From Actinomycetota bacterium (lineage in GTDB: Bacteria > Actinomycetota > Actinomycetes > Mycobacteriales > Mycobacteriaceae), in the NCBI GenBank assembly GCA_018268465.1, contig JAFDWN010000012.1:32949-96948 (forward strand): a DNA stretch of 64,000 bases. The letters run 5' to 3'. The notes under the pieces were generated by a model, which saw only the letters and a program-made list of their open reading frames with translations, searched no databases and was not told where the DNA came from. Below are positions 4,210 through 6,533 of the stretch, piece after piece; position 1 is the first letter of the stretch; each line of letters starts with the position of its first letter. The position numbers and the translations under genes were made by a program.

Positions 4210-4803
4210 TCAGAGCGCCTCCAGCTCGAGCAGCTGCGACTTGGCGGTTGTCCCGCCCACGTACTGGCCGGTGGATCCGTCCGAACGCACGACCCGGTGG
4301 CACGGGATGACGACGGGCAGCGGGTTGTGCGCGCACGCGGTACCCACCGCCCGGACGGCTCGCGGGTTGCCGACCGCGGCGGCGACCGTCGCGTAGGTTT
4401 CGCGCATCCCGTAGCCGATGTCGCGGAGGTGTTCGACGACGGTGCGGCGGAAGCCCACCGCCAGGCGCAGGTCCACCGGGACGTCGAATGCGGTGCGGCG
4501 CTTGGCGAAGTACTCGTCGATCTGGCGCGCGGCGGGATCGAGGCGGGCGGGGGCGCGCAGGATGCGCGGGCTGACCGACGCCGCCAGGCCGTCCAGGACG
4601 GCGGTGTGATTCTCGACGGCGTAGGCGACGCGCAGCAGGCCGGTGGGGGTGGCGGCGAGCAGCAGGACGCCGACCGGGGTGTCGACGGTGCGGTAGGCGA
4701 CGTCGAGTACGCCTGCGGCGTCGGCGGTCTTCACGAGGCGCCGGTGCAGTGCGGCCAGTACGGCGTCATCGGTATCGTCCTCGCGGAAAATGTTGGTGCT
4801 CAT
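4210..4803 (-). CDS. ogt: Methylated-DNA--protein-cysteine methyltransferase
   Basis: A 197-aa suicide DNA-repair enzyme that transfers the alkyl group from O6-alkylguanine to its own cysteine. The active-site motif PCHRV and following VRSDGSTGQYVGG are intact, and the DNA-binding helix-turn-helix precedes them. The N-terminal domain is also present. ATG 4803 overlaps the stop of the upstream ECF sigma gene by an ATGA, so the two are translationally coupled. Coupling to a sigma factor suggests a stress-controlled repair unit. Confidence 0.93.
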   Translation of the reverse strand: MSTNIFREDDTDDAVLAALHRRLVKTADAAGVLDVAYRTVDTPVGVLLLAATPTGLLRVAYAVENHTAVLDGLAASVSPRILRAPARLDPAARQIDEYFAKRRTAFDVPVDLRLAVGFRRTVVEHLRDIGYGMRETYATVAAAVGNPRAVRAVGTACAHNPLPVVIPCHRVVRSDGSTGQYVGGTTAKSQLLELEAL

Positions 4804-5279
4804 GGTTGTTCGTCCTCGGAATAGATCTTGCGCAGAGTTTTGATGCCGTCGGCGGCGGCGCGGCGCGCGGCGTCGGGGGAGTTGCCCAGCAGTGCGGCGA
4901 TCTCGGCGTACGGCAGTCCGGCGATGTGGTGGTAGGCGACGGCCTGACGTTGTTTGTTCGGTAGTCGGGCCATGGCCGCCCACACGTCGGAGTCGCGCGC
5001 GGCCGGGTCGGCGCCCGCGGCCGTGCTTTCGGGCAGGCACGCGGTGGGCACCGGTGTGCGTGAGCGTGCCCGGCCGACGTCGAGCGCGCGGCGATGCGCG
5101 ATGGTGACCAGCCACGCCTCCACGTTGGCCCCGGCCGGGAGGTCGGGGTAGGCGCGCAGCGCCGAGAGGAACGTCTCCGACCAGGCGTCGTCGGCGTCGA
5201 TCGGGCCGACGACGGCGCGGCAGACACGCAGCACCGTGGCGCCGTGTTCGGCCACGACTTCCTCGAACGGTTTCACCAT
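4800..5279 (-). CDS. ECF-type RNA polymerase sigma factor
   Basis: A 159-aa sigma-70-family protein with region 2 (residues about 5-75: FEEVVAEHGATVLRVCRAVVG, DDAWSETFLSAL, VEAWLVTIAHRRALDVGR) and region 4 (LPNKQRQAVAYHHIAGLPYAEIAALLGNSPDAARRA). It is compact, with no C-terminal extension. No anti-sigma gene lies beside it; the downstream partner is ogt, joined by an ATGA overlap. ATG 5279 was chosen because upstream codons in frame fall inside clpC2. Function as an ECF sigma is clear; the regulon is unknown, with ogt the obvious candidate target. Confidence 0.88.
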   Translation of the reverse strand: MVKPFEEVVAEHGATVLRVCRAVVGPIDADDAWSETFLSALRAYPDLPAGANVEAWLVTIAHRRALDVGRARSRTPVPTACLPESTAAGADPAARDSDVWAAMARLPNKQRQAVAYHHIAGLPYAEIAALLGNSPDAARRAAADGIKTLRKIYSEDEQP

Positions 5280-5323: not shown

Positions 5324-6040
5324 TCAGCTGTCGGTGAGGGATTCGAGCGCCGCGGCGAGGTCGCCCTCGGCACGGCCCTTGTCGAAGCCCAGCCGGTGCA
5401 GCGGGCCGTCGGGTTCCTCCGCTTCGAGCAGGGCGAGCAGGATGTGCTCGGTGCCCACGTAGTTGTGGCCGAGGCGCAGTGCCTGGCGGAACGTCAATTC
5501 CAGCACCTTGCGCGCCTGGCCGCTGAACGGGATGAGTACCGGGGTCGCGTCCGTGCGGGGTGGGAGGGTGACTGCGGCGCGAACCGTGCCGGCGTCGGCA
5601 CCCTGCCCGGTCAGCAGGCGCACGGCCAGCGAATGGGGGTCGGCGACCAGGGCCAGCGTCAGGTGCTCGGACCGGATCTCGTCGTTGCCGGCCTCGTGGG
5701 CGAGATTCTGGGCGGCGACGACGACGTTGCGGGCCCGGGGGGTGAAGCGGCCGAAGCCGGCGTTGGCATCCAGCGCGGCCTCGACGTTGTCGGCTTTCGG
5801 GACGAATCGCTTCTGGGCGGCCTGTTTGGTGACGCCCATGCTCTTGCCGATGTCGGTCCACGACGCACCCGACCGGCGGGCCTGGTCGACGAAATGACCG
5901 ATGAGATGGTCGGCGAGCTCGCCGAGGTGTTCGGCGGCCAGCACGGCGTCGCTCAGTTGGTCGAGTGCCCCGGAGCGCACCTGCTTGATCGCATCGATGA
6001 GATCGTCGAGGCGGATGGGGTAGGCGATGGGCTGCGACAT
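5324..6040 (-). CDS. clpC2: ClpC2-like protein, Clp N-domain plus N-terminal helix-turn-helix
   Basis: A 238-aa protein with no AAA ATPase module. The first half contains a probable helix-turn-helix (ASWTDIGKSMGVTKQAAQKRF, about residues 60-80). The second half holds Clp_N repeats (FTPRARNVVVAAQNLAHEAGNDEIRSEHLTLALV and a second TFRQALRLGHNYVGTEHILLALL). This is the architecture of mycobacterial ClpC2 (Rv2667). As I recall, ClpC2 binds ClpC1-targeting antibiotics such as cyclomarin, sparing ClpC1, and controls its own promoter. ATG 6040 is preceded directly by a promoter with two palindromes, giving a predicted leaderless mRNA. Confidence 0.88.
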   Translation of the reverse strand: MSQPIAYPIRLDDLIDAIKQVRSGALDQLSDAVLAAEHLGELADHLIGHFVDQARRSGASWTDIGKSMGVTKQAAQKRFVPKADNVEAALDANAGFGRFTPRARNVVVAAQNLAHEAGNDEIRSEHLTLALVADPHSLAVRLLTGQGADAGTVRAAVTLPPRTDATPVLIPFSGQARKVLELTFRQALRLGHNYVGTEHILLALLEAEEPDGPLHRLGFDKGRAEGDLAAALESLTDS

Positions 6041-6043
6041 GTC

Positions 6044-6088
6044 GTCAACTGTAGGTTGACGGGTCAGTGCGGTCAACGTCGGGTTGAC
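6044..6088 (-). promoter_or_regulatory. clpC2 promoter with two GTCAAC-N5-GTTGAC palindromes
   Basis: Two copies of the palindrome GTCAAC-N5-GTTGAC lie at 6044-6060 and 6072-6088, 28 bp centre to centre. On the minus strand a -35 TTGACC (6076-6071) and -10 TACAGT (6053-6048) are separated by exactly 17 bp. The -35 sits in the distal palindrome and the -10 in the centre of the proximal one. Transcription would begin near the ATG at 6040. This is the geometry of a tight repressor site, and the HTH in ClpC2 itself is the natural candidate ligand. Confidence 0.75.
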
Positions 6089-6224
6089 GGCGGTGTGGTG
6101 GCGAATTGTCCCGGCGCCGGGGTGAATGGGTGGCGAATTCCACGCATGCACTTCCAGCAAAGGTCTGCACGCGGGGGCTTTCTGTCGTAATCTGCCATTC
6201 CACAGTCAGTCCACAGGAGGCACA

Positions 6225-6533
6225 ATGCGCGGCATGTTCGTGTGTTCGGCACTGGCGGCCGGTGCCGCCCTCGCAACAGTGTTGGCGGCGCCCGCGCAGG
6301 CCGACGAAATCGACGACATCTTCATCAGCGTGCTCGATGATGAGGGGATTCCCTACACCTCGCCCGGCGACGCGATCACCGTCGCCAATGCGGTGTGCGA
6401 CTACCTCGCCGACGGAAATTCCTTGGAGGACGCGACCGTCGAAGTGATGAACGAGAGCGGTCTCGGCATCACCGACAGCGGATTCTTCGTGGGCGCATCG
6501 ACCGCTGCGTACTGCTCCGAGTATTCGCCGTAG
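6225..6533 (+). CDS. Small secreted DUF732 protein
   Basis: A 102-aa protein preceded by a perfect AGGAGG at 6215-6220, which fixes the ATG at 6225. A signal peptide (MRGMFVCSALAAGAALATV, cleavage after AQA) leads to a mature acidic domain of about 75 residues with the DUF732 pattern: DDIFISVLDDEGIPY, then AVCDYLADG and a final AYCSEYSP. The two cysteines in these last motifs likely form a disulfide. Such proteins are abundant in mycobacteria and exported; their function is unknown. Confidence 0.85.
   Translation: MRGMFVCSALAAGAALATVLAAPAQADEIDDIFISVLDDEGIPYTSPGDAITVANAVCDYLADGNSLEDATVEVMNESGLGITDSGFFVGASTAAYCSEYSP

Follow-up and report, generated by a model that had tools for sequence, protein, structure and literature searches.

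The published ClpC2 switch and its counterpart in the window

The element analyzed here lies upstream of clpC2 in a 64,000-nucleotide stretch of contig JAFDWN010000012.1 from a member of the Mycobacteriaceae (the window), and its closest described counterpart is the clpC2 switch of Mycobacterium smegmatis and M. tuberculosis (Taylor 2023, PMC10030653). The published account of the ClpC2 proteins from these two species includes several features: (i) the operator has the consensus CGTCAAC-n5-GTTGACG and is located 1-2 bases before the open reading frame (ORF), with a second copy in many species, (ii) the sites overlie the -35 and -10 elements of a promoter proposed to be leaderless, and gel shifts as well as binding of both sites are reported, (iii) deletion of clpC2 in M. 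smegmatis brings a reporter to the induced level, so that repression is lost, and (iv) cyclomarin A raises clpC2 mRNA 263-fold, DNA binding being weaker with the drug. DNA reading was assigned in that work to a C-terminal helix carrying R185 and R189. According to a 2026 paper (PMC12913811), cyclomarin is the only one of three ClpC1-binding peptides that raises ClpC2 in M. tuberculosis.

The feature in the window is this already known switch in another species. The protein family, the operator consensus, the twin sites over -35 and -10 and the leaderless arrangement are as described for M. smegmatis and M. tuberculosis (PMC10030653). Since operators, promoter and domains are the same, the published autorepression, two-site binding and release by cyclomarin A would by homology apply to the window clpC2. 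Self-repression with drug release had been proposed in an earlier note on this DNA, which was silent on the prior publication, and the homology to Taylor 2023 (PMC10030653) lends support to that proposal. It is very probable that the twin operators are bound by ClpC2 dimers and released by a ligand, with the sequence read by an N-terminal helix-turn-helix (HTH) and the Clp_N domain serving as the sensor.

Operators and promoter of clpC2

The two palindromes, GTCAACTGTAGGTTGAC at positions 6044-6060 and GTCAACGTCGGGTTGAC at 6072-6088, each match GTCAAC-N5-GTTGAC in 12 of 12 positions and start 28 bp apart, exactly as the earlier note had described them. Read on the minus strand, the region upstream of clpC2 consists of GTCAACCCGACGTTGAC, 11 bases, GTCAACCTACAGTTGAC, GAC and the ATG. 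The promoter-distal operator 1 (6072..6088), with arms of 6 bp, covers five of the six bases of the -35 hexamer TTGACC (6071..6076, minus strand). The promoter-proximal operator 2 (6044..6060), with arms of 7 bp, contains the -10 hexamer TACAGT (6048..6053, minus strand), and 3 bases separate its 17-bp core from the ATG (2 for the 19-bp form). Both operators match the published consensus, and the published arrangement, a consensus site just before the ORF and a second copy over the promoter, is found at the window clpC2.

The proposed overlay of the palindromes on a promoter with 17-bp spacing is borne out by a promoter scan, in which TTGACC/TACAGT (9/12 across both hexamers, 17-bp spacer) is the sole promoter-like pair in 5900-6300, against a mean of 0.0 (standard deviation 0.2) in shuffled sequences. 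The clpC2 ATG at 6040 lies 7 bases past the -10 hexamer and coincides with the expected transcription start, so that the clpC2 mRNA is probably leaderless; transcription from the ATG, as suggested before, thus stands as a prediction.

The palindromes are more than chance. When up to two mismatches are allowed, 9 palindrome matches occur in the window; 100 shuffled sequences average 2.33 and never reach 9. The only 2 exact matches in the window are those at clpC2. The 6.9-Mb source genome contains 4 exact single sites and a single exact pair, that of clpC2; a scan of this genome with the pattern revealed no second exact pair, and the reversed pattern gave 0 matches. The other two exact single sites are located within a long coding frame (L003) and at a place without a related gene among the listed frames (L004). 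The only other match in this genome with an HTH-like ending is L006 (E 0.02).

Conservation at the clpC2 promoter was assessed in named relatives, taken as the best 80 of 407 confirmed ones from a species collection and belonging to Mycobacterium, Mycolicibacterium, Rhodococcus, Prescottella, Antrihabitans, Streptomyces, Micromonospora and Planotetraspora. All 80 have exactly two sites scoring at least 10/12, separated by 28 bp in 48 relatives and by 29 bp in 32, and the start codon (79 ATG, 1 GTG) follows 2-3 bases past the second site. The earlier note had made its proposal depend on the palindromes being kept in other mycobacterial clpC2 promoters, and they are kept in 80/80 of these relatives.

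Domains of the ClpC2 protein

The clpC2 gene (5324..6040, minus strand) encodes 238 amino acids, starting from an internal ATG of the ORF at 6040 and ending with the stop codon at 5326-5324. Its product combines an N-terminal dimerization and HTH domain (residues 1-82; 5795..6040, minus strand), assigned from AlphaFold2 models and homology to 8ada, with a C-terminal Clp_N domain (residues 95-238; 5327..5758, minus strand), assigned from Pfam and a residue check. The Clp_N domain, as claimed earlier, is recognized by PF02861 (E 1.2e-16, Pfam) and by its similarity to chain 8ad9 (E 6.7e-53, phmmer), and residues 3-70 match the Rv2667-type N-terminal domain of 8ada_A (E 9.2e-33, phmmer). The best solved-structure matches of the whole protein are 8b9o, a Clp amino-terminal-domain chain, and the ClpC2 chains 8ad9 and 8ada (Rv2667). 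The contacts named in Taylor 2023 (PMC10030653), F96, F172, E181, R185 and R189, all occur in the window protein; both cyclomarin-contact phenylalanines, F96 and F172, are among them, and cyclomarin binding is predicted from these residues.

A helix-turn-helix is predicted at residues 61-79 (WTDIGKSMGVTKQAAQKRF; 5804..5860, minus strand), with 72-79 as the recognition helix. The AlphaFold2 model of the full protein (38 sequences, mean predicted local distance difference test score (pLDDT) 81.7) has helices at 61-68 and 72-79, and the model of the N-terminal domain (34 sequences, mean pLDDT 82.1) has them at 61-67 and 72-79; over residues 71-80, pLDDT is 78 in the full model and 67 in the domain model. 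Given the poor superposition of the domain model on 8ada (root-mean-square deviation 14.0), the helix limits were used from the models and the packing was not. The predicted pattern is that of an HTH, two short helices with a tight turn and a conserved second helix, residues Q73-F79 being invariant in 38/38 sequences. The published N-terminal structure, 8ADA, was proteolyzed to residues 4-72 (PMC10030653), and its chain ends at GKSMGV, which corresponds to V70 of the window protein in a profile alignment and falls short of helix 72-79. The second helix of the predicted HTH would thus be missing from the crystal.

Among the Pfam HTH models, only Myb_DNA-bind_8 matches the ClpC2 N-terminal domain (E 0.015, under the cut-off); a relative encoded by a short HTH gene (class B, see below) passes HTH_23 with 29.8 bits against a cut-off of 24.6. 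A structure search with the N-terminal model returned 8ada, badly superposed, and then weak matches only. The term HTH domain region is used for ClpC2 in the 2026 RelI paper (PMC13284704), and neither 'helix-turn-helix' nor 'HTH' occurs in the main text of Taylor 2023 (PMC10030653). The HTH named in the earlier note therefore goes beyond Taylor 2023, and it holds up in the models and in the conservation.

Homolog classes and spacer length

Homologs of the HTH domain were grouped into three classes: class A, the fused ClpC2 (66 loci: the window's own, 29 others from a genome search and 36 of 40 picked for spread); class B, in which a short HTH gene precedes a separate Clp_N gene (32 loci: the 30 best-scoring, L093 and L094); and class C, an HTH with DUF3887 or other tails (13 loci: 11 from a search for DUF3887 fusions, L081 and L085). 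Sites of the form GTCAA-N7-TTGAC or GTCAA-N6-TTGAC were scored over 10 bases at 9/10 or 8/10. Loci within a class share ancestry, so that their counts are not independent, and the informative contrast is that of classes B and C with class A. Before counting, we dropped L057, which coincides with L032, the divergent ClpC2-like proteins L068 and L069, whose sites are degraded, and L070; L070, a short HTH gene with a separate Clp_N gene, and L086 were assigned to no class, and L088, L089, L095 and L096 duplicate L118, L133, L109 and L110.

Spacer length follows the protein class, N7 with fused ClpC2 and N6 with class B. All 66 class A loci have sites, comprising 132 N7 sites and 0 N6 sites at 9/10 or better, and one N6 site at 8/10. 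Class B has N6 sites of at least 9/10 in 31/32 loci (56 sites), at least one site of 8/10 in 32/32, and no N7 site at 8/10 or better; two sites of at least 8/10, 27-29 bp apart, are present in 27/32, and a single site in L109, L110, L111, L112 and L116. Class C has N7 sites of at least 9/10 in 8/13 loci (14 sites) and two or more sites of at least 8/10 in 9/13, with an interval of 29 bp in 6/10; L102-L105 have no pair. The reversed pattern with the same spacer gave 0 sites at 9/10 in each of the three classes, and the other spacers (2-12) together gave 10, 4 and 2 sites at 9/10 in classes A, B and C, respectively.

In class C, DUF3887 was confirmed in 3 members, all that were scanned with Pfam, and L085, L106 and L107 are HTH proteins in which no DUF3887 was seen. 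The search for DUF3887 fusions in 248 genomes found them in 10 at E<=1e-10, two of the rows being HTH-only matches. Out of 20 paralog loci, 14 have N6- or N7-type sites, L086 has a variant (GCAAC-N4-GTTGC by eye) and five have none (L082, L083, L084, L090 and L092). Sites at the divergent ClpC2-like protein L068 are degraded, 9 and 8 of 12; those of L069, a divergent ClpC2 with 43% identity, appear by eye as two repeats GTCAA-N8-TTGAC, a third spacing. The short HTH genes L078 and L087 have three palindromes about 21-23 bp apart, compared with two at 28-29 bp.

Genome scans by pattern alone

A set of 71 genomes was scanned for exact N7 and N6 pairs using only the pattern. There are 34 N7 pairs, spread over 32 genomes, and 39 N6 pairs, spread over 34; the reversed N7 and N6 pair patterns occur at 0 places in the 71 genomes. 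Fused ClpC2 genes account for 32/34 of the N7 pairs (29/30 by script, the 4 further places being judged by position), and HTH-family genes of class B for 36/39 of the N6 pairs (29/30 by script, the 9 further places being judged by position). The exceptions are two flavin monooxygenase sites for N7 and one site each in genomes G047, G023 and G019 for N6. A ClpC2 match at E<=6.2e-22 is present in each of the 32 genomes that contain an N7 pair, and a class B match in 33/34 of those that contain an N6 pair, G047 being the exception. Five genomes (G004, G014, G037, G054 and G061) have a ClpC2-like match at <=1e-12 and no exact N7 pair, their repeats being inexact or otherwise spaced.

In one genus (g2, 8 genomes), an N7 pair precedes a flavin monooxygenase. 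Five of its genomes have one such enzyme that is 74-100% identical to the query (the query itself accounts for the 100%). All five orthologs (L161, L289, L291, L294 and L296, with the pair near base 1500 of each) have an N7 pair 47-76 bases ahead of the matched part. In the remaining three genomes, the monooxygenase matches reach <=34% only and no N7 pair is present there. The best solved-structure matches of this enzyme are tetracycline destructases (E 8.6e-27), found among 6-hydroxynicotinate monooxygenases. Its score with the curated tetracycline-destructase model (112.5 bits against a cut-off of 550) is far below the threshold, so that no drug is implied.

Several further observations concern these loci. 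In L161, a gene for a PEP-utilizer mobile domain begins on the other strand 2 bases past the N7 pair. A different gene, about 180 amino acids long, follows an N7 pair in G286 and G183 (near base 1500 of L287 and L292); G183 has no exact pair besides this one, so that its clpC2 is without an exact pair. The N6 pairs at L201 (base 1482) and L202 (base 1496) lie upstream of genes that encode no HTH; judged by eye, these specify a membrane protein and an alpha/beta hydrolase, and they are possible further targets of the short HTH. The clpC2 match at G176:C1:2724162-2724397 extends across two reading frames, indicating a frameshift or a sequencing error.

Genes for an ECF-type sigma factor (window about 4800-5279, minus strand) and an Ogt-type alkyltransferase (4210-4803, minus strand), both identified by eye, are located directly downstream of the window clpC2, near enough to it for a common transcript. 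Matches to both genes at the same place were found only in L209 and L211 among the 80 relatives.

The two-gene form

In class B, a Clp_N gene comes next in 32/32 loci, and the start of its matched domain lies between -19 and +28 bases relative to the stop codon of the HTH gene. These 32 loci are mostly best-scoring matches; in the set chosen by pattern, a Clp_N match adjoins in 25 of the 29 script-assigned N6 loci and in none of L170, L172, L185 and L194. The separate Clp_N proteins keep F96 in 31/32, F172 in 28/32 and E181 in 22/32. The class B HTH was found in 169/248 genomes of the order (E<=1e-6), representing 48/62 genera, and was not found by the same search in the window's own genome. 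No publication on a two-gene system of HTH and Clp_N was found among open-licence papers.

Upstream of MSMEG_3760 of M. smegmatis, two 16-bp motifs with a 6-bp palindrome were reported in 2017 at -47 and -19 of the ATG, and a nearby TetR protein does not bind them (PMC5660060). The size of these orphan palindromes and their 28-bp spacing are those of the class B form, and MSMEG_3760 is predicted to be a class B HTH and the owner of the twin 16-bp sites. The adjacent MSMEG_3761 is named clpC3 in PMC10454040, and, according to a review (PMC10864484), ClpC2 and ClpC3 are comparable in their affinity for cyclomarin and ecumicin. MSMEG_3760 and MSMEG_3761 were reported to be monocistronic (PMC5660060), which counts against an operon there.

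DNA-reading domain and alternative explanations

Sequence comparison and modeling indicate that the DNA reader is most likely the N-terminal HTH and not the C-terminal Clp_N helix, because (i) the 8ada crystal fragment stops before the recognition helix, (ii) HTH genes without a fused Clp_N have the same sites upstream, (iii) the spacer tracks the HTH class, and the pattern scans lead to genes of this HTH family, and (iv) R57A, which together with the isolated C-terminal domain serves in print to argue that high-affinity binding needs the dimer, derepresses more than R188A/R192A in M. smegmatis, 4.6-fold versus 2.0-fold (PMC10030653). Neither the HTH as the DNA reader nor the spacing rule of the family was found in print among open-licence papers.

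In the proposed mechanism, ClpC2 dimers, one per palindrome, would cover the -35 and -10 elements of their own leaderless promoter and keep clpC2 nearly off. The HTH residues 61-79 of the N-terminal dimer would read the DNA, one recognition helix per GTCAA half-site, and Clp_N would act as the sensor, tethered by a low-confidence, presumably flexible linker shortly past the recognition helix. A Clp_N ligand such as cyclomarin A would weaken DNA binding through this tether and release clpC2, and the extra ClpC2 would soak up the drug. R185 and R189 may add a weak, non-specific DNA contact, a supporting role that would explain why derepression on their loss is weaker than with R57A.

In the published model, reading of the operator falls to the Clp_N helix at the C-terminus, with R185 and R189, the N-terminal domain only dimerizes, and cyclomarin A obstructs the reading surface either directly or through a conformational change. 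Three published observations weigh in its favor and against an N-terminal reader: R185A/R189A weakens the gel shift, R188A/R192A derepresses 2.0-fold in M. smegmatis, and the Clp_N surface concerned is positive and lies near the cyclomarin site (PMC10030653). We consider the published assignment improbable, given that the short HTH and HTH-DUF3887 proteins, chains without Clp_N, have such operators and that the crystallized N-terminal fragment is without the recognition helix. Ownership of the palindromes by another regulator, with ClpC2 meeting them only in vitro, is very unlikely: ClpC2 binding in the window's species rests on homology, but deletion of clpC2 in M. smegmatis lifts the reporter to the induced level (PMC10030653), and a ClpC2 match exists in every one of the 32/71 genomes with N7 pairs. 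It is scarcely credible that the repeats arose by chance or as a side effect of strong promoter hexamers, since, although one arm of site 1 makes up most of the -35, no hexamer includes the left arm of site 1 or the final bases of site 2, both sites are kept in 80/80 named relatives, and the reversed-pattern control gave 0 in 71 genomes.

Beyond the N-terminal HTH as the reader in ClpC2 itself, the comparison makes it fairly probable that ClpC2 belongs to a modular family of actinobacterial self-repressors with leaderless transcripts, in which a shared dimeric HTH would act on twin GTCAA-N6/N7-TTGAC promoter operators and the sensor would be exchangeable (a fused Clp_N, a Clp_N supplied in trans by the next, ClpC3-like gene, DUF3887, or none). 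The Clp_N protein of the two-gene form would be the sensor of the drug or of misfolded protein and would influence the small repressor, and in one genus ClpC2 would also control a flavin monooxygenase.

The window feature confirms the published drug-sensing switch in another species, and the comparative result matters more. A DNA-reading surface on a different domain than in print would mean that the release by cyclomarin passes between domains and is not simple masking. If the monooxygenase is indeed a target, ClpC2 runs a small response in one genus, not only its own gene. The half-site together with the spacing rule allows candidate targets to be listed class by class for an actinobacterial genome. 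The comparison also offers an owner for the MSMEG_3760 palindromes and connects ClpC3-type proteins with a dedicated repressor.

Comparison with known systems

The nucleoid protein Fis has dimerizing helices followed by a C-terminal HTH. Its structural match to the ClpC2 N-terminal model is weak. The antitoxin RelI (Rv2664) of the RelS-RelI system (PMC13284704, PDB 9sdc) belongs to the same HTH-region family (profile match E 1.8e-08, positions 5-80), and its paper states the similarity to ClpC2 as well as fusions to DUF3887 and DUF2812. In RelI, the C-terminal helices hold the toxin, and, unlike for ClpC2, the available part of the paper reports no inverted repeat upstream (PMC13284704). The other HTH classes, the N6 sites and the further targets are additions of the present analysis, not met in the accessible portion of Taylor 2023 (PMC10030653). 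Taylor 2023 (PMC10030653) has the C-terminal domain reading the DNA, whereas the present analysis favors the N-terminal HTH.
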